A DNA stretch of 64,000 nt from NCBI GenBank assembly GCA_963575645.1, contig OY754468.1, positions 13,640,001 to 13,704,000 on the forward strand, given 5' to 3'. The position numbers and the translations under genes are program-made. The stretch is from Xanthostigma xanthostigma. Its lineage: Eukaryota > Arthropoda > Insecta > Raphidioptera > Raphidiidae. Under the pieces are notes generated by a model. That model worked only from the letters and a program-made list of their open reading frames with translations. It had not been told where the DNA came from and made no database searches. Below, piece after piece: positions 2,470 through 34,279 of this stretch; the first letter of the stretch is position 1, and each line of letters begins with the position of its first letter.

Positions 2470-3190
2470 GGGAAAAGTTGGCGCGTGTGCAGAAGAGATA
2501 TATGCAATATGGTTTTTTATATAATAATGGTGTACTTTTAATAATGGTTTATTATTCTATGTTACAAGAAAGTTTTAAAAATGTTTTTTAAGGAAATTCA
2601 GTGCATGCGCAAAAGGGTATAAGTTATAAAGTTGTGTTTATATAATAATGATATACTTTTCACAACGGTTTATTGTTCTATCTATTTTTACATGAGTTTT
2701 ATAATTTTTTTGTAAAAATCAGCGAATGCGCAAAAGAGTTATATGCCATTGTTGACTTTTTATATAATAATGGTGTATTTTTTATAATGGTTCATTATCC
2801 TATTTGACAAAAAAGTTTTGTAAAATGCTTTTTGAGGGAAAGTCGGCGCATGCGCAGAAGAGGTACAAATTAGAAAGTTATTTTTATATAATAATGATAT
2901 AATTTTCATAATGGTTTATTATTCTATCTATTTTTACAAGAATTTTATAATTTTTGTGTAAAAATCGGTCCATGCGCAAAAGAGACATATGCCACCGTTG
3001 TATTTTTTATATAATATTGGTCTATTTTTTATAATGGTTTATTATTCTATAGAAAGTTTAGTTGAAGTTTTTGGGGGAAGGTCGGCACATGCACATAAGA
3101 GATATATGTTATAAAGTTGTTTTATATAATAATAATATACTTTTCATAACGGTTTGTTATTCTATCTGTTTTTACAAGAAAGTTATGAAT
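2470..3190. repeat. Tandem array of ~122 bp units, alternating subtypes
   Basis: A motif close to GCATGCGCAAAAGAG recurs at about 2480, 2601, 2724, 2847, 2969 and 3087, giving a period near 122 bp and about six units. Odd and even units differ: one type reads ATAATGGTGTA after the TATATAATA block, the other ATGATATA. This suggests a dimeric, ~245 bp, higher-order unit. Single diverged relatives on the opposite strand occur near 22500-22560 and 57410-57535, where they sit in or next to dispersed repeats. Confidence 0.8.
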
Positions 3191-3631
3191 TTATTTTCTA
3201 AACTTATAATTTCGGGAATATTTTGAAAATAAAAAAAATCTGTCGTTCTTTTGTTCTGAAGATGTTAGGTAGTTGACAAGCATTCTTTGTTTCATTTTTA
3301 CATGACGTGATAACATAATATTATATGTATAGAGAACCATGAAATACTTAAAATGAATTTTTCCTTTCTGTACTTCAATATTTTCAACTATCATTTTTTT
3401 CTCGGATTAAGTTAAGTAAATTATATAATTAAGCTCCAAGCGTCGTTAAAAAAATACACCGATTTTCAAACATAACGCCGGGGTATATTATGTAAAATTT
3501 CGCGCCTTGTAATTCGTGAATTACTTGCGCATATACTCCCACTGGTTTTAATTTGGTAGAGTCATAGAAAGCACTCGTAAATGTAAATGTACGCTTGACA
3601 TGTTTTAATCTTGTTATTTTATAAAATTGAC

Positions 3632-12330: not shown

Positions 12331-12728
12331 GCATGAAGTAAATGCATATTGCTTGTTTTGCCATAATAATATTTCAATAATCAAAACACAGAACAATTAA
12401 CACTTTCTTTTTGACGAAGGTTTCGATGGTAAAGGTGGTAATTACCTCCCCCCCCACCAGGATCATAATAACAAAAAAATAAAACTGAAAATATTACGAA
12501 TACCTGGCACAAAAATAAAATTTAGAAATACTTTTTTACAAAGAATTTCTAAAATTATTTTAGAAAATTATATATTGCTTGACACCTTCCATCGTGCGTA
12601 TTCTTGTGTGATAGGTATCAATAAAACTTAAAAAAAATATTGTTCTTTTTTGCTTTTTGTCTGTGAATTTGAAATACATCCCTGTATGTAAAATTTTTAA
12701 ATTTCATTGAATAGCCAACGGCTAGGGC
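12331..12728. other. Upstream region of the antifreeze gene
   Basis: AT-rich DNA between the RT pseudogene and the core promoter, with a C8 run near 12450. No conserved element was recognised by eye. Any tissue or cold-response control sites of the antifreeze gene would be expected here. Confidence 0.35.
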
Positions 12729-12765
12729 TATATATAGTCTAGGGAGCTCAGTCGATCTCAGCAGT
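12729..12765 (+). promoter_or_regulatory. Core promoter of the antifreeze gene
   Basis: TATATATAG at 12729-12737 is followed by initiator-like TCTCAGCAGTC at 12756-12766. An A at 12760 lies 31 bp from the first T of the TATA box, a normal spacing, giving a predicted 5' leader of about 58 nt. A second initiator-like TCAGTC at 12748-12753 is too close to the TATA box. Inferred by position only. Confidence 0.6.
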
Positions 12766-12818
12766 CGAGCGAATTACCCAGCGAAATAATTACCATAATA
12801 ATATACCTACTTTTCGAA

Positions 12819-13184
12819 ATGTTTGGTGTGAATTCTTTTTCAAAAAAATGGCTGATAATAGCAGTCATAGTGATGTGTTTGTGCACCCAGTTTTATTGTC
12901 AATGCACTGGAGGTTCTGATTGCACCAGTTGTACAGCAGCATGCACTGGATGTACAAACTGTCCAAATGCGATTACATGTACCAATTCTGAAAATTGTCT
13001 CAAGGCAACGACATGCACCGACTCAAAAGACTGTCGAAATGCAGTAACCTGTACCGATTCAACCAACTGTCTAAATGCAGTAAACTGTACCGATTCAACC
13101 AACTGTCAAAATGCTAGAACCTGTACTCATTCAACCAACTGTTACCGGGCTATAGCCTGCACTGACTCAACAGGATGCCCCTAA
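12819..13184 (+). CDS. Secreted beta-helical antifreeze protein, Tenebrio type
   Basis: A 121-residue single-exon protein. Residues 1-27 form a signal peptide with a KKW start and a hydrophobic core ([11 protein letters not shown]); the mature chain probably begins at Gln28 in [11 protein letters not shown]. The rest is 12-residue repeats of the form TCT-x-S-x-(N/D)-C-x-x-A with 18 mature Cys, expected to pair inside each coil. In the known Tenebrio molitor family these coils stack into a flat beta-helix whose Thr-Cys-Thr face binds ice, lowering the freezing point of haemolymph. Coil faces here read TCT (four times), NCT once, and ACT in the last. The mature length of 94 is about one coil more than the usual 84-residue isoforms, and the usual short C-terminal extension after CP is missing. 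The start is supported by the TATA box 90 bp upstream. Family identity is strong; activity is inferred. Confidence 0.95.
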
Positions 13185-13634
13185 GTATTTTACTTTTATG
13201 TGATGATTTTAATATTATAAATTTTTTATTTAATACTTTGCGAGGCAACCTCTTATTAGCTACTTTTTACCACAATATAATATTGATGGTTGAAAAAACA
13301 AGTGGATGTTATTATTTTGCGCAAGTCGTCCATACAAATTCGCATTTTTATAGTTTTGTAGGCAATTACCATACCGAGAATGAATCTATATGCATAAAAT
13401 ACCTAGAAGAATAGAAAGATACGGTGATGGTGAAATTTCAGATTTTGCTCAGTTTTTTGTAGAAACGGTTGGTCTAATGTTTACATGATTGAGGATGTGG
13501 ATATAATGTTTGTTTTATGCATTTTGTCTTTCTTTTTTATGCCGTTTGGATCGTTTTTGCCCAAATTTATATGAAACTGAAATAAGTTTGTATCGTATAG
13601 GTATTTGCTTTTGTTTATTCACATTTTAGCTTTC

Positions 13635-16699: not shown

Positions 16700-17983
16700 T
16701 GCGGCCTAGATAAAAAAACTTTTGTTTATAAAGTTACATTGTAAAATTATTTTTACAGTAGAAAAAATTTCAAGAAAAGTCTAACTTTGCTTGTTGTACC
16801 GTTGGCACGCGGTCTAGATAAAGAACTTTTACTATTATTTTGTAAAATGATTTTTTACTTATAAAGTTATTTTATAAAATATTTTGCTAATAAAATTATT
16901 TTGTAAAATCATTTTTAAAAATAGTACGACCACTTAAATTTTTAAAATTCTAAAATTTTGTAATGGTCAAAATTTTGTTGTTGTACTGTTGGAAAGCGGT
17001 CTAGACTTTAGATAAAGAACTTTTGCTATAAAAATTTTTTTGTAAATTCATTTTTTAAAGTAGTACGGCGACTTAAAGAAAATGTTGAAACTTCAAAAAT
17101 TTCGTAAAAGTCAAAATTTTGTTGTTGTTCTGTTGGCATGGGGTCGAGATAAAGAAATTTTGCTTATAAAAATATTTTGTAAAAGCATTTTTTAAAGTAA
17201 TACAAGAAAATTTTGACTTTTCACGAAATTTTTGAATTTGAAAACTTATGTTGTGCCCTAAATTAAATTTTCGAAGTTCAAAAATCTCGTGAAAAGTCAA
17301 AATTTTCTTGTTGTAGTGTTGGCACATAAAGAACTCTTATTTATAAAATTATTTTGTAAAATCATTTTTTAAAGTAGGACGGGCACTTAATGAAAATTTT
17401 CAAAATTCTAAAATTTCGTAAATATCAAAATTTTCTTGTTATACTGTTGACACGCGGTCTAGATAAAGAACTTTTGCTTTTAAAATTTTTTTGTAAAATG
17501 ATTTTTTAATGTAGTACAAGCACTTAATAGTTAAAATTTTCTTGTATTGTTAAAATAAAATTATTTTAGATAGTCATTTTTTAAAGTAGTACGGGCTTTT
17601 AATATAAATTTTCAAAATTTATATTAATTGCCCGTACAACTTTAAAAAATGATTTAAAAAATAAATTTTATAAGCAAAAGTTCTTTTTCTACACCGCGTG
17701 CCAAAGGTACAACATAAAAATTTTGATATTTACGACATTTTTGAATTTTCAAAATTTACATTTAGTGCCCGTACTACATAAAAAAATCATTTCACAAAAT
17801 AATTTTATAAATAAAAGTTCTTTATCTAGACCGCCTTCCAACAGAACAACAAGAAAATTTTGACTTTTTACAAAAGTTTTGAATTTTGAAAATTTTCTTT
17901 AAGTGCCCGTACAACTTTAAAAAATGATTTTACGAAATAATTTTATAAGCAAAAGTTCTTTATCTAGACCGCGTTCAAACAGT
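16700..17983. repeat. Tandem ~140-180 bp units within foldback arms
   Basis: Units marked by GGCACGCGGTCTAGATAAAG recur near 16700, 16806, 16990, 17135, 17320 and 17450. After an inversion point near 17600 they appear in reverse orientation (TCTAGACCGCGTGCC-like) near 17695, 17825 and 17965, and again near 20780 and 20915. This internal tandem array is typical of Foldback-type elements. Confidence 0.75.
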
Positions 17984-18010: not shown

Positions 18011-18436
18011 TTACAGGATGTTGGCGACCACATTTTTCCAATGATCTCTGATCACAATTGCGTTCTTCATTGAAGCAAACGTATTAAAACCCGTCCATTT
18101 TTTTATGTTGGATATCCAAGTTGTTCTTTTCCTGCCTCTTGAGACCCATCCTTCCAATTTACCACATATAATAAGTTTTAACAGTTCGTATTTATCGCCT
18201 CGCATTATGTGTCCAAAATATCCGACGCATCGCTTTTTTATATTATTTATCAACTGAGTTTGATAATTCACTCGCCGAAACACTTCGTTGTTAGTCAGAC
18301 GATCAGTCCATTTTATCTTTTGCATCCTTCTTACACACCACGATTCGAATGCTAATAGTTTCGTGATGCTCGCACTTTTTAAAACCCACGTTTCGCACGA
18401 ATACAGTAACGTAGACCAAACATACGATTTTAACAT
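18011..18436 (-). pseudogene. LINE C-terminal domain (after RT), frame-broken
   Basis: The third segment of the LINE polyprotein. It starts around LKSYVWSTLLYSCETWVL and includes the W-C-RRM-KI-WTDR-TN-EV-RR pattern and the GHIMRGDKYELL segment typical of insect endonuclease/RT proteins. It is separated from the upstream segment by an apparent one-base insertion in a T run near 18446, since the family reading continues directly in the shifted frame. The ORF ends just upstream of the 3' simple repeat, as expected for a complete 3' end. Confidence 0.85.
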
Positions 18437-18449
18437 TCTCAGCCGGCTA

Positions 18450-18848
18450 TTAAAATTTAAATTGCGATTTGTTAAATATTTTTTTTAATTTATGAAAATT
18501 ATTTTTTGCGATTGCAATGCGCTTATTAATTTCGATTAATTGGTCATTATTGGGTGTAAATATTTTCCCGAGATACTTTACTTTGTCCACCTGGTTTAAT
18601 ATTTGATTTTTACATTTTATATTAATTGTTGGCTGAATGGGCTCTTTACTAAAGACCATACATACAGTTTTCCGAGAATTAATTTTTAAGCCATATTGCT
18701 CACTCACGGATACAACTTTGTCAATTAAATATTGGAGGTCTTGTTCACTTGAAGCTATTAAAATTGTATCATCGGCATATTTTAAACAATTGATTAGCAC
18801 TCCATTAACTTTCATTCCAACATTCGTATTCTCTAGAGCTTCTTGCAT
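18450..18848 (-). pseudogene. LINE reverse transcriptase, catalytic palm part
   Basis: Carries the YADD catalytic box at residues 24-27 of this segment, followed by LINE-like GLKINSRKTVCMVFSK and a KVKYLGKIFTPN motif. It continues the upstream 577-residue segment, but the join lacks about a dozen residues normally found between the KGVRQG block and the next helix. A small deletion has therefore also shifted the frame at about 18850. The enzyme would be inactive. Confidence 0.85.
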
Positions 18849-18855
18849 AATATTT

Positions 18856-20609
18856 TCAGCCTTGCCTGACGCCTTTTTGTATATTAATGCTCCTAGTACT
18901 TCCGTAACTAGTAGTCACTTTCACTGTTTGATTCCAGTATAAGTCTTTCAAAATATTGATTATTTTTTTATCGACATCTAAACGCTCAATAATTTTGAAA
19001 AGCTTGTCATGGAGTACATTATCGAAAGCCTTTTCATAGTCAATAAAACAGGTGTACATTCTTAAATTATTTTCAATTGATCTCTCCACAAGTATGTTTA
19101 AGCAAAAGATAGCTTCTCTTGTACCAACTCCTTTTTTAAAACCCATTTGTGTTGTTCCTATTTCAGCTAGCATTGGTTTTTCTATTCTTTTTAGTATAAT
19201 TCTGAGGAAAACTTTGATAACATGGCTCATCAAGCTGATTGTGCGGTAATCAGAGCACTCACTGGCGTTAACTTTTTTTGGTAGTAATATAAAATTCGAT
19301 CTACATAATATACTTGGAATTTTTTCTTTGACGTACATTTCATTGAATATATCACAAAGTCTATGTACGCTTTTTGTGTCAAGGTTCTTCAAATATTCAG
19401 CAAATATCATATCTTCACCAGTTGCTTTTCGATTTGCAGTTTCCTCTATAGCCCGTTCAACCTTACTTAATAAAATATCGTTACTATACAATTGACTCCC
19501 GTCTAACTCAGCCGGTTTACGTTTGGTGTCACTGAATAATTCTTCGATGTAATTCTGCCACCTTTCTAGGATTTCTGGATTCTCCACCAACACCGTACCG
19601 TCTTTGTCTTTTATGTTTCCTTTGCTCCTTTTCCTATAAATACCGCACATATTTTTTATTTCCTGATGCAGCCTCTGTGGGTTATTTAGCCTTTCATATT
19701 TTTCGACGTTTTTACATTTTTGGTCCATCCATTTTTGTTTCGCTAGCTTAATTTCTTGTTTTATTTGTCTATCTATTCCTTTGTACCTGTCATGATCGTT
19801 CTTAACCAATTTTCTTTCTTTCATTAATGATAATATTTTTTCCGTCATCCACTCTTTACTATCCCGATTTAAATTGTCACCTTTTAGTGTCTCAAGTGCT
19901 GCCGTTCTAACATTATTTATAAATATTTCTGTTTTCTTTTCCAGACTTTCTGTCATTACTTCCCCCACCGTTTGAAAGGTTTCTTCAATTTTTTCCTGGA
20001 ATTCTTTCTTTATTGAATCATTATTCAGCTTTTCTATATCGAGATTATCAGCTTTATTATACTTTTTTTCAATCTTTTTAAGTTTAAGTTGTATATTTGC
20101 AATTAATACAACATGATCCGAGTTTATATCAGCTCCGGGATATGTTTTGACACTTTTGATAGAATTTTTAAAACGTTCATTAATAAGTATGTAGTCTATT
20201 TGATTTCTTACTCTGTTAGTATGCGTATCCCCGGGTGCTTTCCATGTATACAATCTTCTTGGGTGCTGATTATACCAAGTATTAGCTACAATTAATTCTT
20301 TGCTTATAGCAAATTCTGCTAGTACATCGCCTCTTGCATTCCTACATCCTAAACCGAAAGGTCCAATTGCAGGCTTATCTTCCTTTTTACCCAACTTGTC
20401 ATTAAAATCTCCTATCAGAATTGTGCATTCATGATTTTTTGTAATCAAGAGGATATTTTCTAATCGGCTGTAAAAATCGTTACATTCTTCCTCTGTGCTA
20501 TTGGATGTAGGGGCGTATACTTGAATTACGTTTGTGCGTACTGGATAAGTGTCTAATTTTATCATTATTATCCTCTCCGACTCGTACACCGTGCCTATAA
20601 TTTTTGATT
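18856..20609 (-). pseudogene. LINE endonuclease C-terminus plus RT fingers
   Basis: The frame is open from the 5' truncation point at 20610; a GTG near 20589 is not a real start. Counted from that GTG, GDFN lies at residues 60-63 and SDH at 157-159, both catalytic motifs of apurinic-type endonucleases. The RT begins after a linker rich in Lys and Glu, with ATGEDMI, ILLPKK and FIDYEKAFD (about 515-523), and stops at KGVRQG. The N-terminal part of the endonuclease is missing. Confidence 0.9.
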
Positions 20610-29437: not shown

Positions 29438-29474
29438 CAGTGCCAAACCCTGCCGACAATATTATAGTGTATTT
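29438..29474 (+). repeat. R1 repeat, left part, split by the LTR element
   Basis: TGCAGTGCCAAACCCTG to GTGTATTT matches the start of R1. The rest of this copy continues at 34280. Confidence 0.75.
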
Positions 29475-29737
29475 TTAGGATCGTTTATTTAGGGATAGCC
29501 AGGATCACAAATGAAACGCGTCGTAATACAATTAATAAAACACTGACAAATTTATTTCAATTTTGTATCGATTGAAAAAGATATAAAAAGTACAAATTAT
29601 TACGTGAGCTATTTCATAACCGGTCAGCGCTTCTTAGTTGCATGTTATGATAACGCTGGCCGGTTCGACGGTCGCTATGATATTGCTGGCCGGTACGACG
29701 GTCGCTTCTGTTTTTGGCGTGGATTTGAGGCGCCACA
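29475..29737 (-). repeat. 3' LTR
   Basis: 263 bp, beginning TGTGGCGCC and ending CCTAA in element orientation. No difference from the other LTR was seen by eye. It contains a ~30 bp tandem duplication (GGCCGGTTCGACGGTCGCTA and a near copy), which is translated as the end of the pol frame. Confidence 0.9.
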
Positions 29738-30807
29738 ACCACTCCCCCTCTAGTGCTGTCCGCGGGGAGCGGGCAGAACGAGACCTTCTTCCTGGGACGT
29801 CCTCTCTTCAGGGGTTGTCTTGGCATGGTCGGAGTTTGCGTCAGGGTGGAGGGTGCGTGGACAGAGCTGTCGGCGGGCGTTATAGCTGGTCCGGCCCCTG
29901 AAGCTGGATTCTCTTGGGGTGGTGCTAATGCATCTGCTGTCTCGAGATAAGCTGGCTTGAGGGCGTCTGTGGAGACGGTCCGGTGTCGACCGTTAAAGTC
30001 CACGACGTAAGTCTTGTCGTCCACGCGCCGGATGACTCGATGGGGGCCTGTGTATGGAGGTTGCAGAGGTTTTCTGATGGAGTCGACCCTCTTGAAGACG
30101 TGGGAGCATGAACGCAAATCCCTGAAGAAAAAGGGAGTGCTCTCCGGGATGTGTCTGGACGCTGGCGCGGGCTTGATGGTTTGGGCGAGACGGCGAAGGC
30201 CTTCCACGAAGGTGACCGGAGAGGCATCCGGATGGCTCTGCGTGGTGAAGAAGTCGCCGGGAACTCTGAGCGTCGTTCCATAGAGCATTTCTGCCGGAGA
30301 GGCCTGGAGGTCCTCTTTGAAGGTGGTACGCAGGCCTAGCAAGACCAATGGTAATCGGTGAGGCCACGGGGTCTCGGGATCGCACATAAGAGCGGTTTTT
30401 AGGGTGCGATGTGTGCGTTCTACCATGCCGTTGGATTGTGGATGGTAGCTTGTTGTGCGAATCCTGGTGATCCCGAGGAGCCGGGCCAGGTCTGCGAAGA
30501 GAGTGGACTCGAATTGGGCGCCCTGGTCCGTCGTGATTGTTAGCGGAGTGCCATACTGGCTTATCCATCGGTCGATTAGGGCTCTGGCCACTGTGTTTGC
30601 CTGCTGGTCTGGCAGGGGGATAGCCTCGAGCCATCTGGAGAACCGGTCCACGATTGTGAGGCAGTACTGGAGACCTTGGCAGAGTGGCATCTTGATGAGA
30701 TCAAGGTAGAGGTGTTCGAAGCGACCCTCCGGTGTGCGGAAATCACCCAAGGCTGAGCGGTTGTGCCGGTGAATTTTGGCGCGCTGACACGGCTGGCACG
30801 ATCGGGC
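29614..30807 (-). pseudogene. Integrase part of pol, separated by an in-frame TGA
   Basis: Same frame as the upstream pol segment, with only a stop codon between. Counted from the Met at 30750, the catalytic triad is Asp17, Asp75 and Glu111, with the required 35 residues between the last two. A C-terminal GPF/GPY-like module (LQPPYTGPHRVI) follows. The two Cys of the zinc-binding domain (CQPC) lie just after the stop, while its two His lie before it. The stop stands where related proteins usually have Trp. The last ~40 residues are read from inside the LTR and contain two copies of a ten-residue SDRRTGQ-type repeat. Integrase joins the DNA copy to the host genome; from this copy alone it would be split. 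Confidence 0.9.
29738..29753 (-). promoter_or_regulatory. Polypurine tract
   Basis: In element orientation AGAGGGGGAGTGGT lies directly before the 3' LTR. This is the expected position of the plus-strand primer for reverse transcription. Confidence 0.8.
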
Positions 30808-33030
30808 TCAGCGGTTGACTTCTTTGCGCATGCCTGGCCAGACGAACTTAGACGAGACGAGGCGGGTGGTGGCTCTGACACTTGGGTGTGCCAGGTTGTG
30901 CAGTACTTCGAAGGCCGTGCGGCGCAGAGGTGGTGGCAAGTAGGGTCTGAGTACCCCCGAAGAAACGTCGCAGAAGATGGAGTGACCGTCGACGATTACG
31001 GCCTGTAGGTTCAAGCTTGAGTTGATAGCGATATGCTGGAGCTCACGGTCCTCGGCTTGGTGGTGGTTGATGATATCTGGGCTGAGCCTCGAGGGCATCG
31101 AGACGGTAGCTACTCGAGAGAGGGCGTCGGCGATCACGTTCTCTTCACCCTTAACATGAACCAGCCTGGTGTTGAACTGTAGAATGTAGTCGAGCTGTCG
31201 AGCCTGTCGGGGGGAGGCTTTATCTGACCGTTGCGAGTCTGCGAAGGTGAGAGGTTTGTGATCTGTGTAGATCGTGAAACTCCTGCCCTCGAGGATCCTT
31301 TGCAGGTTCTTCACAGCCGCATAAATGGCTAGGAGCTCGCGGTCGTAGGTGTGGTAGCGCTTCTCCGTGTCCGTGAGCTTCCTTGAGAAGAAGGCTAAAG
31401 GTCTCCATCGGTTTTGCTCATCCAACTGCTCGAGCGCGGCGCCGATGGCCGTATCCGAGGCGTCTGTCCTTAAGGCCAGATGAGCGTCCGGTCTTAGGAA
31501 GGTGGAGGTGGTAGCCTTCGAGACGGCGAGCTTGCTATGCTGGAAGGCCGCGTCTGCTTCAGCAGTCCAGGTGATGTCGGCCTTCTTTTTCTTAGGCGGT
31601 AGGCCTTTTAAGAGTTCATTGAGTGGTGCCAAGACGTCGGCTGCCTTTGGTATGCACCGGCGGTAGTAGTTGAGTAGGCCCATGTATCTACGCAGCTCGG
31701 TGGAGGTCGTCGGGCGAGGAAAGTCTGTGATGGCCTGCACTTTGTGCGGTGGTGGTTTGAAGCCGTCGGCTGAGACGGAGTAGCCTAGGTAGGTAACTTG
31801 ATCTTTCGCCAAGTCACATTTCTCCGGATTTATGCGCAGCTTTGCCTTGCGTAGGGCCTCAAAGAGCTGCCGAAGGTGCCTGACGTGTTGGTTAGGGTCT
31901 TCGGAGGCGATGATTATGTCATCCATGTAGGCTCTGGCGAAGGGCAGGTCTCGAAGCAGGTGGTCGATCATTCGCTGAAGGGATTGGGCCGCGTTGCGCT
32001 GGCCTAGCGAAGACCGGGTGAACTCAAAAAGTCCGAACGGGGTCGTCACTGCCGTCTTCGGGATGTCCTCTTCGGCGACGGGGATTTGGTAAAAAGCCTT
32101 TTCTAAGTCGATGACGGAGAACACCCTGCCGCTGAGCCCCTGGAGGAGGTCCTCGACGATCGGCAGAGGGTAGCGGTCTGGAATTGTGCAAGCGTTGAGA
32201 CGCCTGTAGTCGCCTGTGACGCGCCAGGTCCCGTTAGGCTTTGGGACGAGGTGTAGGGGGCTTGCCCATTGGCTTGAGGATGGTCGTACGATGCCTCGAT
32301 CGAGCAGGCGCTTGAACTCGTCCTTGGCGGCGGCGAGACGGGGGCCGATGAGTCTTCTAGGTCGTTCGAAGACGGGTGGGCCCGAGGTCTGTATGTGATG
32401 GTGAACTGTCAGATTAGGCGTCTCGGCTGTTGAGCCGTCTACCAGGGTGATGTCCACGTACTCTTGCATGAGGTCGCGGAAGGGCTGACCGGAGTCCCCG
32501 TAGGGGGTGCTGACCTGGCTGACGACGGCAATGCTGTGTACTGGTGCGAGGGCTGTGAAGCCCTTCGAAGAGAGACCTGTTTTCGCGTCGATTAGCTGTT
32601 GGCCCCGGAGGTCGATAAGGAGGTTGAAGTGGGACAGAAAGTCCGCTCCTAGGATGGCTGTCTCCACGTCGGCGACGGTAAAGGCCCATTTAAAGGCCCC
32701 ACGAAGACGTAGATTGAGTTCCACGTGGTGAGTGCCGTACGTGGCAATTGCGGAAGAGTTGGCTGCCGTTAGTGTGAGAGGCTGGCGTTGCAGTCTCTTT
32801 TTGACGGCTGCCCTTGGAAGAAGCGAGATAACGGAGCCGGAGTCGACGAGGATTTTTGTGTTCGTTGTCTTGTCGAAAACGTGAAGGCGGTTTTCCGTTG
32901 GGATGGTAGCGCCGGCCTCCGCCGCCTGGATCGGGGGCGGCACTAGTAGTTTCCCTGGTTGGGAGAAGAGAAGGTGCACGGTGGTTTGCAGTTGCGAGCC
33001 TGGTTCCCGTAGGTTCGGTGGTACCAGCAA
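30808..33030 (-). CDS. Pol: protease, reverse transcriptase, RNase H
   Basis: 740 residues up to the TGA at 30808-30810. The aspartic protease has VDSGS at about 62-66, with DSG rather than the more usual DTG. The RT runs from about 215 to 435 with SVIDLEKAFYQI and the catalytic YMDD at 368-371. The usual FxRMPFGLRNA strand reads FTRSSLGQRNA here, an unusual set of changes close to the active site. RNase H follows with TDAS (Asp523), Glu565 and Asp590. The C-terminal end holds the two His of the integrase zinc domain. The frame is -1 relative to gag and overlaps it by 88 nt, so pol is probably made by -1 frameshifting; the Met at 33030 need not be a real start. Very GC-rich compared with host DNA. 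Confidence 0.9.
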   Translation of the reverse strand: MLVPPNLREPGSQLQTTVHLLFSQPGKLLVPPPIQAAEAGATIPTENRLHVFDKTTNTKILVDSGSVISLLPRAAVKKRLQRQPLTLTAANSSAIATYGTHHVELNLRLRGAFKWAFTVADVETAILGADFLSHFNLLIDLRGQQLIDAKTGLSSKGFTALAPVHSIAVVSQVSTPYGDSGQPFRDLMQEYVDITLVDGSTAETPNLTVHHHIQTSGPPVFERPRRLIGPRLAAAKDEFKRLLDRGIVRPSSSQWASPLHLVPKPNGTWRVTGDYRRLNACTIPDRYPLPIVEDLLQGLSGRVFSVIDLEKAFYQIPVAEEDIPKTAVTTPFGLFEFTRSSLGQRNAAQSLQRMIDHLLRDLPFARAYMDDIIIASEDPNQHVRHLRQLFEALRKAKLRINPEKCDLAKDQVTYLGYSVSADGFKPPPHKVQAITDFPRPTTSTELRRYMGLLNYYRRCIPKAADVLAPLNELLKGLPPKKKKADITWTAEADAAFQHSKLAVSKATTSTFLRPDAHLALRTDASDTAIGAALEQLDEQNRWRPLAFFSRKLTDTEKRYHTYDRELLAIYAAVKNLQRILEGRSFTIYTDHKPLTFADSQRSDKASPRQARQLDYILQFNTRLVHVKGEENVIADALSRVATVSMPSRLSPDIINHHQAEDRELQHIAINSSLNLQAVIVDGHSIFCDVSSGVLRPYLPPPLRRTAFEVLHNLAHPSVRATTRLVSSKFVWPGMRKEVNR

Positions 33031-33854
33031 AAACCGCTGCCTTCGCCGTTCGGGGTGGACGAACCGCCTCGTGTCTGGCTCTGCGACCTTGATCTTGAGC
33101 GGCTTCGGCGCTGGTTGTCTGCCTGGGTCTTGGAGAAAAAAAGCAGTTGGTCCATGGAAAGGCGTAAAGCGGCTAGGTCCTTGGCCAAGGATTGCACCGT
33201 GGGAGGGTGGACTGCCGCGGTGTCAGCGACGGTTGATGCCGTATTGACGTTCTGCGCTGAATTGACAGCTGCTGTGGATGGATAGTCGCTGATGAGTTCA
33301 TCCGCGAGCGATGCTAATTCGTTGAGGGGAGATGACTTGACGACTTTCAAAGAGCGGGCGACCGCAGGTGGCAGGAGGTCGAACCATTTGACCCTGAAAG
33401 CGTCGTCCGTGATGGCCGACCCAGCGAGTGACTTCATGTGCCGGAGGAGCTGGGAAGGTTTCCTGTCGCCGAGTTCTAACTCTGTGAAGAGCTTGTGAAG
33501 CTGGCGGTCAGCGGAGTCGGTCAGCCGTTTAAGCATCTCCGTCTTCAGGTACTCGTATTTGTCTGTATCCGGAGGGTTGAGAAGAATATCGGAAATCTCG
33601 TTGACTGTGGTGTCGTCTAGAGCCGCGACAACTCCGTCGAACTTGCTTGTGTCGGAGCGTATTTTATGGTTGTTGAAGGCGGCTTCCACTCTGACGAACC
33701 ATACCCTGGGATTGCCCCTCCAGAAGGTCGGCAGGTTTACAGACGAGACGGTCGTGACTTGAGCGTGCTGTGCGTCTGTGTTTACGGCTGTGTTTAGGCC
33801 CGGTGTCGTTGCGATGGCCGTGTTCGGTGTCGTGTTGTCTATGTCGTTTGGCAT
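32943..33854 (-). CDS. Gag capsid/nucleocapsid
   Basis: 303 residues starting with a plausible Met after a leader of about 160 nt. The capsid core includes PTFWRGNPRVWFVRVEAAF and LLNPPDTDKYEYLK, followed by LGDRKPSQLLRHM, all characteristic of Gag from this gypsy lineage. A basic Ser-Arg stretch precedes one zinc finger, C-x2-H-x9-C-x3-C, the CHCC variant instead of CCHC. Gag packages the element RNA in virus-like particles. No frameshift or stop is visible, so this part looks intact. Confidence 0.92.
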   Translation of the reverse strand: MPNDIDNTTPNTAIATTPGLNTAVNTDAQHAQVTTVSSVNLPTFWRGNPRVWFVRVEAAFNNHKIRSDTSKFDGVVAALDDTTVNEISDILLNPPDTDKYEYLKTEMLKRLTDSADRQLHKLFTELELGDRKPSQLLRHMKSLAGSAITDDAFRVKWFDLLPPAVARSLKVVKSSPLNELASLADELISDYPSTAAVNSAQNVNTASTVADTAAVHPPTVQSLAKDLAALRLSMDQLLFFSKTQADNQRRSRSRSRSQSQTRGGSSTPNGEGSGFCWYHRTYGNQARNCKPPCTFSSPNQGNY

Positions 33855-34000
33855 GTTTGACGGAAAGCGTACGTTGGGTAGGATATGACGGCGTTGCTGC
33901 CACGTGCGCGAATGTACTTGATCTCCGCACGACTATCGTCAAATTTTCACTGTACGCGCACTGAACTATCCCTATGTGAAGTAGGATTCACGAATGTAAC

Positions 34001-34016
34001 TGTCGGGGTCACCACT
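34001..34016 (-). promoter_or_regulatory. Primer binding site, tRNA-Trp type
   Basis: In element orientation, two bases after the 5' LTR comes TGGTGACCCCGACA. The first 13 bases are complementary to the 3' end of insect tRNA-Trp as known from its conserved sequence. CsRn1-type elements are reported to use this tRNA. Confidence 0.75.
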
Positions 34017-34279
34017 TTAGGATCGTTTATTTAGGGATAGCCAGGATCACAAATGAAACGCGTCGTAATACAATTAATAAAACACTGACAAATTTATTTC
34101 AATTTTGTATCGATTGAAAAAGATATAAAAAGTACAAATTATTACGTGAGCTATTTCATAACCGGTCAGCGCTTCTTAGTTGCATGTTATGATAACGCTG
34201 GCCGGTTCGACGGTCGCTATGATATTGCTGGCCGGTACGACGGTCGCTTCTGTTTTTGGCGTGGATTTGAGGCGCCACA
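34017..34279 (-). repeat. 5' LTR
   Basis: 263 bp, reads identically to the LTR at 29475-29737 over its whole length by eye, including the ~30 bp internal duplication. TATTT at 34280-34284 is the target duplication matching 29470-29474. Confidence 0.9.

Follow-up and report, generated by a model that had tools for sequence, protein, structure and literature searches.

An antifreeze protein gene with an asparagine in its putative ice-binding row, and its family of 19 or more genes

The gene at positions 12819-13184 (plus strand) of the window, the 64-kb stretch of DNA analysed here in full, is an ordinary member of a known antifreeze protein family, with a length, a cysteine number and an ending that are all unexceptional. 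Judged from the translation and its paralogues, it probably encodes a working or recently working secreted antifreeze isoform of unremarkable type. By itself the gene adds one more isoform to a well-studied family. It also constitutes a natural test of what a single interruption of the short ice-binding row costs after the gain of a coil, and of N-C-T glycosylation on an ice-binding face.

The open reading frame is complete, running from ATG to TAA over 121 codons plus stop. The precursor of 121 residues is composed of a presumed signal peptide of 27 residues and a mature part of 94 residues containing 18 Cys, with a computed mass of ~9.64 kDa in the oxidised form. The start of the mature protein was set at Q28, corresponding to the first residue of the 1EZG chain, and cleavage before Q28 is presumed. 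The coil motifs read TCT, TCT, TCT, NCT and TCT, followed by ACT in the last coil and the C-terminus STGCP. A complete TCT-repeat frame with 94 mature residues, 18 Cys, one NCT coil and a CP end had been described in an earlier sequence-only reading, and all of these were seen in the translation (Table 1). The frame is unbroken by an intron from the signal through the stop codon; TmAFP is reported as intronless in the accessible part of the relevant paper (PMC8038014). Within the 64-kb window, tblastn at E values up to 1 found the window gene alone and no second copy. In a blastn analysis of the window, the internal repeat of the gene was recovered together with an inverted self-match of 51 bases (82% identical) at 12512-12561, upstream of the gene.

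Table 1 Features of the window gene and its presumed promoter, in window coordinates.
Feature	Position	Strand	Basis	Remark
TATA box (TATATAT)	12729..12735	+	pattern match	
Initiator-like TCAGTCG, possible transcription start	12748..12754	+	pattern match	~20 bases past the start of the TATA box; start inferred
Inferred 5' untranslated region	12755..12818	+		
Presumed signal peptide	12819..12899	+	translation	27 residues
Mature N-terminal cap QCTGGSDC...NCPNAI	12900..12974	+	1EZG alignment	25 residues
Coil 1	12975..13010	+		12 residues
Coil 2	13011..13046	+		12 residues
Coil 3	13047..13082	+		12 residues; 31/36 bases same as coil 4
Coil 4	13083..13118	+		residues 89-100; codon 13083-13085 = Asn in ice row and sole N-glycosylation sequon
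Coil 5	13119..13154	+		12 residues
Last coil ACTDSTGCP and stop TAA	13155..13184	+		

Transcription would start downstream of a TATA-like stretch that is also present in the aligned paralogue promoters, shortened to ATATAG in L019, L020, L021 and L023. A promoter block, GGAGCTCAG, is found in 16 of the 19 promoters of the family, with GGAGCTGAG or GAGAGCTGAG taking its place in L025-L027. Flanks were compared over window positions 12719-12818 and 13185-13584. The upstream 100 bases of the window gene agree with those of L014 at 97 of 100 positions and with those of L010 at 89 of 96. Against L010, 7/96, 10/144, 12/150 and 32/246 bases differ in the non-coding flanks (7 to 13%). In its 5' flank the window gene resembles L014 most, whereas the 3' flank is close to L020, L013 and L024 among others, but not to L014 (91/150). 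This mismatch of affinity points to a mosaic history, perhaps through gene conversion.

The assignment to the Tenebrio-type antifreeze proteins, already proposed in the sequence-only reading, was borne out by both profile and sequence searches. The Pfam AFP profile (PF02420) matched the window protein with an E value of 1.2e-18 and a score of 65.3 bits, the cut-off being 36.5, and phmmer against 1EZG gave an E value of 2.2e-25. The alignment comprises 57 identical residues out of 81, with one gap of 12 residues, and the 1EZG/1L1I chain is the sole PDB sequence matched at E values up to 0.001. All 18 Cys are in register, with two per coil at fixed places and the remainder in the Cys-rich cap. 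AlphaFold2 was run on the single sequence without alignment and returned two confident models (mean pLDDT 87.2 for the best and 83.0), the other three scoring 46.6, 45.1 and 43.9. Its predicted strands include mature residues 26-28, 38-40, 50-52, 62-64, 74-76 and 86-88, which are the places of the TCT, NCT and ACT motifs. The NCT strand (62-64) lines up with the TCT strands, and the Asn is therefore predicted to sit in the ladder of ice-binding strands. Foldseek matched the predicted fold best to 1ezg_A (E 3.2e-6, 60% identity, rmsd 3.6, TM-scores 0.58 and 0.65), and beyond the two TmAFP entries all its matches had E values above 1. Phage records gave one match of 24% to an Aeromonas phage (E 3e-4), and the window protein was without a match among viral contigs. 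Fragments of the window protein were not found in paper text, where sequences are rarely printed, so this is no sign of novelty.

The primary paper on the isoforms is reportedly that of Liou and others from 1999. TmAFP isoform 2-14/YL-1 of Tenebrio molitor (PDB 1EZG, 1L1I) has the cap, the 12-residue coils of the form TCTxSxNCxxAx, the Cys pattern and ACT in the last coil in common with the window protein, which differs by one extra coil, one first-place Asn and the CP end. The unbroken TCT row ascribed earlier to the Tenebrio proteins is therefore overstated, as the 1EZG chain itself carries ACT in its last coil. Native isoforms of T. molitor are described, in the available part of the source, as including 8-coil forms and glycoforms (PMC6572240); compared by description only, these also have 8 coils and lie in the range of 9+ kDa. 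Repeat numbers of 7-11 for TmAFP and 6-8 for DhbAFP are given in the accessible text of PMC8038014. Isoforms 1-6 of DhbAFP, from Dorcus hopei binodulosus, span 6 to 8 repeats and include sequons and natural replacements in the TCT row, such as TCI in DhbAFP3; their signal of 28 residues begins with MAFKTCA (read from the primer), in contrast to 27 residues and MFGVNS in the window protein (PMC8038014, in part). Isoforms of Microdera are described as differing by one repeat between seasons (PMC4204002, in part).

We searched the whole assembly (623,323,696 bases, 28 contigs; window at G000:C5:13640001-13704000) and obtained 22 tblastn matches, none with an internal stop, which correspond to 19 genes including the window gene. 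Repeating the whole-genome search with the divergent paralogue L026 as query led to the same 19 genes; as both searches score the best candidates only, the family comprises at least 19 genes. Nine of them, the window gene included, lie within C5:13527511-13902100, and the remaining genes are distributed over C5:3.45-3.50 Mb (four), C5:6.28 Mb (two), C4 (three) and C2 (one). For T. molitor, the accessible part of PMC10445852 reports a 287.9 Mb assembly whose 42 antifreeze genes form a single large cluster.

Among the 19 genes found, mature lengths range from 69 to 123 residues, and 94 is the most frequent single length (L009-L012, all four with 18 Cys). Six coils after the cap is likewise the most frequent number, present in 8/19 genes (L009-L013, L015-L017) within a range of 4 to 8, and in 9/19 when the tail of L025 is removed. 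As these eight genes include the three most similar full-length paralogues, coil number does not mark a distinct isoform, contrary to what had been suggested from the extra coil. An unusual coil number was accordingly rejected as a feature of the window gene, and so was an unusual absence of a C-terminal extension: 13 genes end at CP (GCP), four at CPP and two have a tail. The three paralogues L010, L011 and L012, 82 to 86% identical to the window protein, have the same precursor of 121 residues with 94 mature residues, 18 Cys and the STGCP end. They differ in having Thr at the place of the Asn and Cys at position -3 of the signal, and L010 and L012 carry Ser at several third places of the coils. 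The order of the coils is identical in the window gene and these three paralogues, from which it follows that the 8-coil form probably predates the window gene, barring spread by gene conversion.

Two further pairs of paralogues are nearly or fully identical. L019 (G000:C4:24186991-24187389) and L021 (G000:C5:13857052-13857450) show 2 synonymous and 1 non-synonymous differences in 133 codons, reflecting either a recent inter-contig duplication or an assembly duplicate. The coding sequences of L016 and L017 (G000:C5:3.469 and 3.483 Mb), 14 kb apart, are identical, owing either to a very recent duplication or to gene conversion.

The first-place (short) row of the window protein reads T T T N T A, and its third-place row is unbroken. 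Codon 13083-13085 is AAC (Asn, T89N), and one C-to-A change from ACC accounts for it. At the same alignment column, the 18 paralogues have Thr from ACC (11) or ACT (1, L027), Ser (1, L025), His (1, L026) or a gap (4); this assignment could shift with a different alignment of the repeats. Of the altered ice row claimed earlier, the Asn itself is thus real and private at its column, but departures from TCT as such are frequent across the family. They amount to 29 of the 97 internal coil motifs, with 16 in the divergent L025-L027 and 13/80 in the other 16 genes. L020 also has NCT, but in the last coil, where Ala is usual (11/19 last coils). No report of Asn at this place of the ice row was found among the matches listed in the literature searched, a weak negative given that subscription papers were mostly outside its scope.

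The product would be a secreted hyperactive-type antifreeze protein, folded as a right-handed solenoid of 12-residue coils with putative Cys2-Cys8 disulfides and presenting its Thr on one flat ice-binding face. The accessible part of a simulation study of TmAFP names six long-side and four short-side Thr, places the first-place Thr on the short side, where their methyls hold the channel waters ordered, and states that replacing all short-side Thr by Ser abolished this order (PMC11803617). The row interrupted by the Asn would hence be the one whose methyls order the channel waters. By analogy, any effect of the single mid-row Asn would arise from fewer changes than in the all-Ser TmAFP, but from a bulkier residue. 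Relative to TmAFP 2-14, the extra coil would add to the long row, giving seven Thr (mature T16, 28, 40, 52, 64, 76 and 88) instead of six. The Asn would leave the short row with four Thr, equal to the TmAFP count but split 3+1. On balance, thermal hysteresis would probably be close to, or lower than, what an uninterrupted 8-coil isoform gives.

The pattern of substitution points to a fold that would still be under constraint. Among the five full coils within the window gene, all 18 pairwise differences at the columns Cys2, Thr3, Ser5, Cys8 and Ala11 are synonymous. When compared with L010, L011, L012 and L014, respectively, the core columns (Cys2, Ser5, Cys8 and Ala11) have 0 non-synonymous differences throughout and 2, 3, 3 and 1 synonymous ones, which argues that the fold is still constrained. 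The exposed columns have 11, 10, 11 and 9 non-synonymous against 1, 1, 1 and 0 synonymous differences, suggesting a surface that is either free or diversifying. For the ice columns the counts are 3, 2, 7 and 0 non-synonymous and 0 synonymous, the Asn coil being gapped against L014, and for the signal 3, 4, 3 and 4 non-synonymous and 2, 2, 2 and 0 synonymous.

A high rate of non-synonymous change, which in combination with a missing transcript was earlier held to speak against a distinct isoform, is seen in part over the whole gene, with dN/dS values of 1.03, 0.84 and 0.94 against the three nearest full-length paralogues L010, L011 and L012, but the changes avoid the core. Against L014, which has 82 mature residues, dN/dS reaches 4.92, with 15 non-synonymous differences against a single synonymous one over 109 codons. 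These values would also suit a copy in decay, with the Asn and a Phe at the signal cleavage site as early lesions in a redundant member of the 19-gene family, a possibility we consider rather unlikely. The values drop against more distant members (0.28 for L018 and 0.22 for L022, the lowest of the other 14 genes, the highest being 1.58 for L016 and L017). The frame is full, the Cys are retained (18/18), the TATA and initiator motifs are present, and non-synonymous differences are absent from the aligned core columns.

The Phe in question is F25 (codon 12891-12893). The signal of the window protein aligns with those of the 18 paralogues, all of which (18/18) have Cys at this position, -3 of the presumed cleavage site. 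A small residue is usual at -3 of signal cleavage sites, from which Phe departs, and cleavage may be slower or shifted. Of 65 columns at which all 15 other TCT-row genes agree, the window gene departs at two, through C25F and T89N. Those genes, however, each depart at 0 to 3 such invariant columns themselves (L012 at 3), so that the two changes lie within the range of the family. Private codons give a similarly mixed picture. Fourteen codons of the window gene are shared with none of L010, L011, L012 and L014 (12 non-synonymous, 2 synonymous), and 10 of them are absent from seven further paralogues too, all 10 being non-synonymous and 0 synonymous; this comparison left out L016-L018, L022 and L025-L027. 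The chance of 0 synonymous changes in 10 private codons is ~0.07, a value compatible with weakened constraint.

If instead the N-C-T were glycosylated before folding, a glycan on the ice face could silence or restrict binding. N-C-T is the sole N-glycosylation sequon predicted in the window protein and is placed in the ice row; glycosylation is also described for some of the native isoforms of TmAFP (PMC6572240, in part). A precedent comes from the N-C-S site of hemopexin, with its middle Cys in a short-range disulfide, which according to the accessible part of PMC8645230 is glycosylated but underused owing to this disulfide, inefficiently so under some redox conditions; the same source notes that sites near cysteine are frequently skipped. 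As far as the available text of PMC8038014 goes, every Dorcus isoform has a sequon in its last repeat, with extra ones in two isoforms, and a recombinant Dorcus isoform without glycan was hyperactive. In the present family N-C-T occurs in the mature protein of 10/19 genes, and in the eight besides the window gene and L020 it is located in the cap or at coil place 7. Altogether, a glycan-restricted isoform appears quite improbable.

That the Asn and the exposed changes were selected, tuning the ice planes bound or the cooperation with other isoforms, is highly improbable: non-synonymous differences per site at exposed columns against L010, L011, L012 and L014 (0.13-0.14) exceed synonymous ones (0-0.05), albeit on small numbers, and native isoform mixtures are described in part of PMC6572240 as outperforming one recombinant isoform, but at exposed columns the non-synonymous rate lies close to, or just slightly over, the flanking rate (against L010) and Asn at the same column is found in 0/14 other genes with a residue there.

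A more surprising gene than the window gene is L026 (G000:C5:13901690-13902100, minus), a candidate non-ice-binding relative according to its predicted protein. It scores 24.4 with the Pfam AFP profile, below the cut-off of 36.5, and its coil motifs KCN ACY LCN DCR HCI TCI SCN contain a single Thr over 14 ice-row places. L026 retains the signal, the cap and 20 Cys, and three N-x-S sequons occupy former third-Thr places. Compared with the window gene, the core shows 0 non-synonymous and 8 synonymous differences, and the ice columns 13.5 and 4.5; this contrast gives a Fisher p of 0.0003 on rounded counts, with one L026 coil in a gap. Two non-synonymous core differences were found against L023 and L027, probably stemming from the one Gly of L026 at a Ser place. 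In the tree, L026 groups with L025 and L027 at a weak bootstrap of 64. Given this placement and the unrooted tree, the ice row of L026 was either lost or never gained. L026 would offer a case of scaffold function without ice binding, by which the origin or fate of beetle antifreeze proteins could be asked.

L025 and L027 (G000:C5:6280416-6284672, minus) have Ile, Val, Ala or Arg at most of their third coil places and a C-terminal tail of 18 residues, and L027 scores below the Pfam AFP cut-off. One could arrange the T-to-N change with its sequon in the window gene, the repeated Thr-to-Ser changes of L012, the third-place changes and tail of L025 and L027, and finally L026 into a graded series in which the ice row changes while the disulfide solenoid is conserved. 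In such a series the scaffold would be turning to a second, non-ice role with the window gene as an early step, which strikes us as rather doubtful.

The window also contains several repetitive elements. An LTR retrotransposon at 29474-34279 (minus strand) has reverse transcriptase, RNase H and integrase domains, and its insertion is probably young, given the identity of the 264-base stretches at either end. A LINE-like element at 18450-20589 (minus strand) has endonuclease and reverse transcriptase domains and is adjoined by an open reading frame at 18011-18436; to its left, tandem repeats of 138-144 bases occupy 16874-17203 and 17607-17982. A further tandem array at 2514-3202 has a period of 246 and 2.8 copies, or alternatively consists of halves of ~121 bases.
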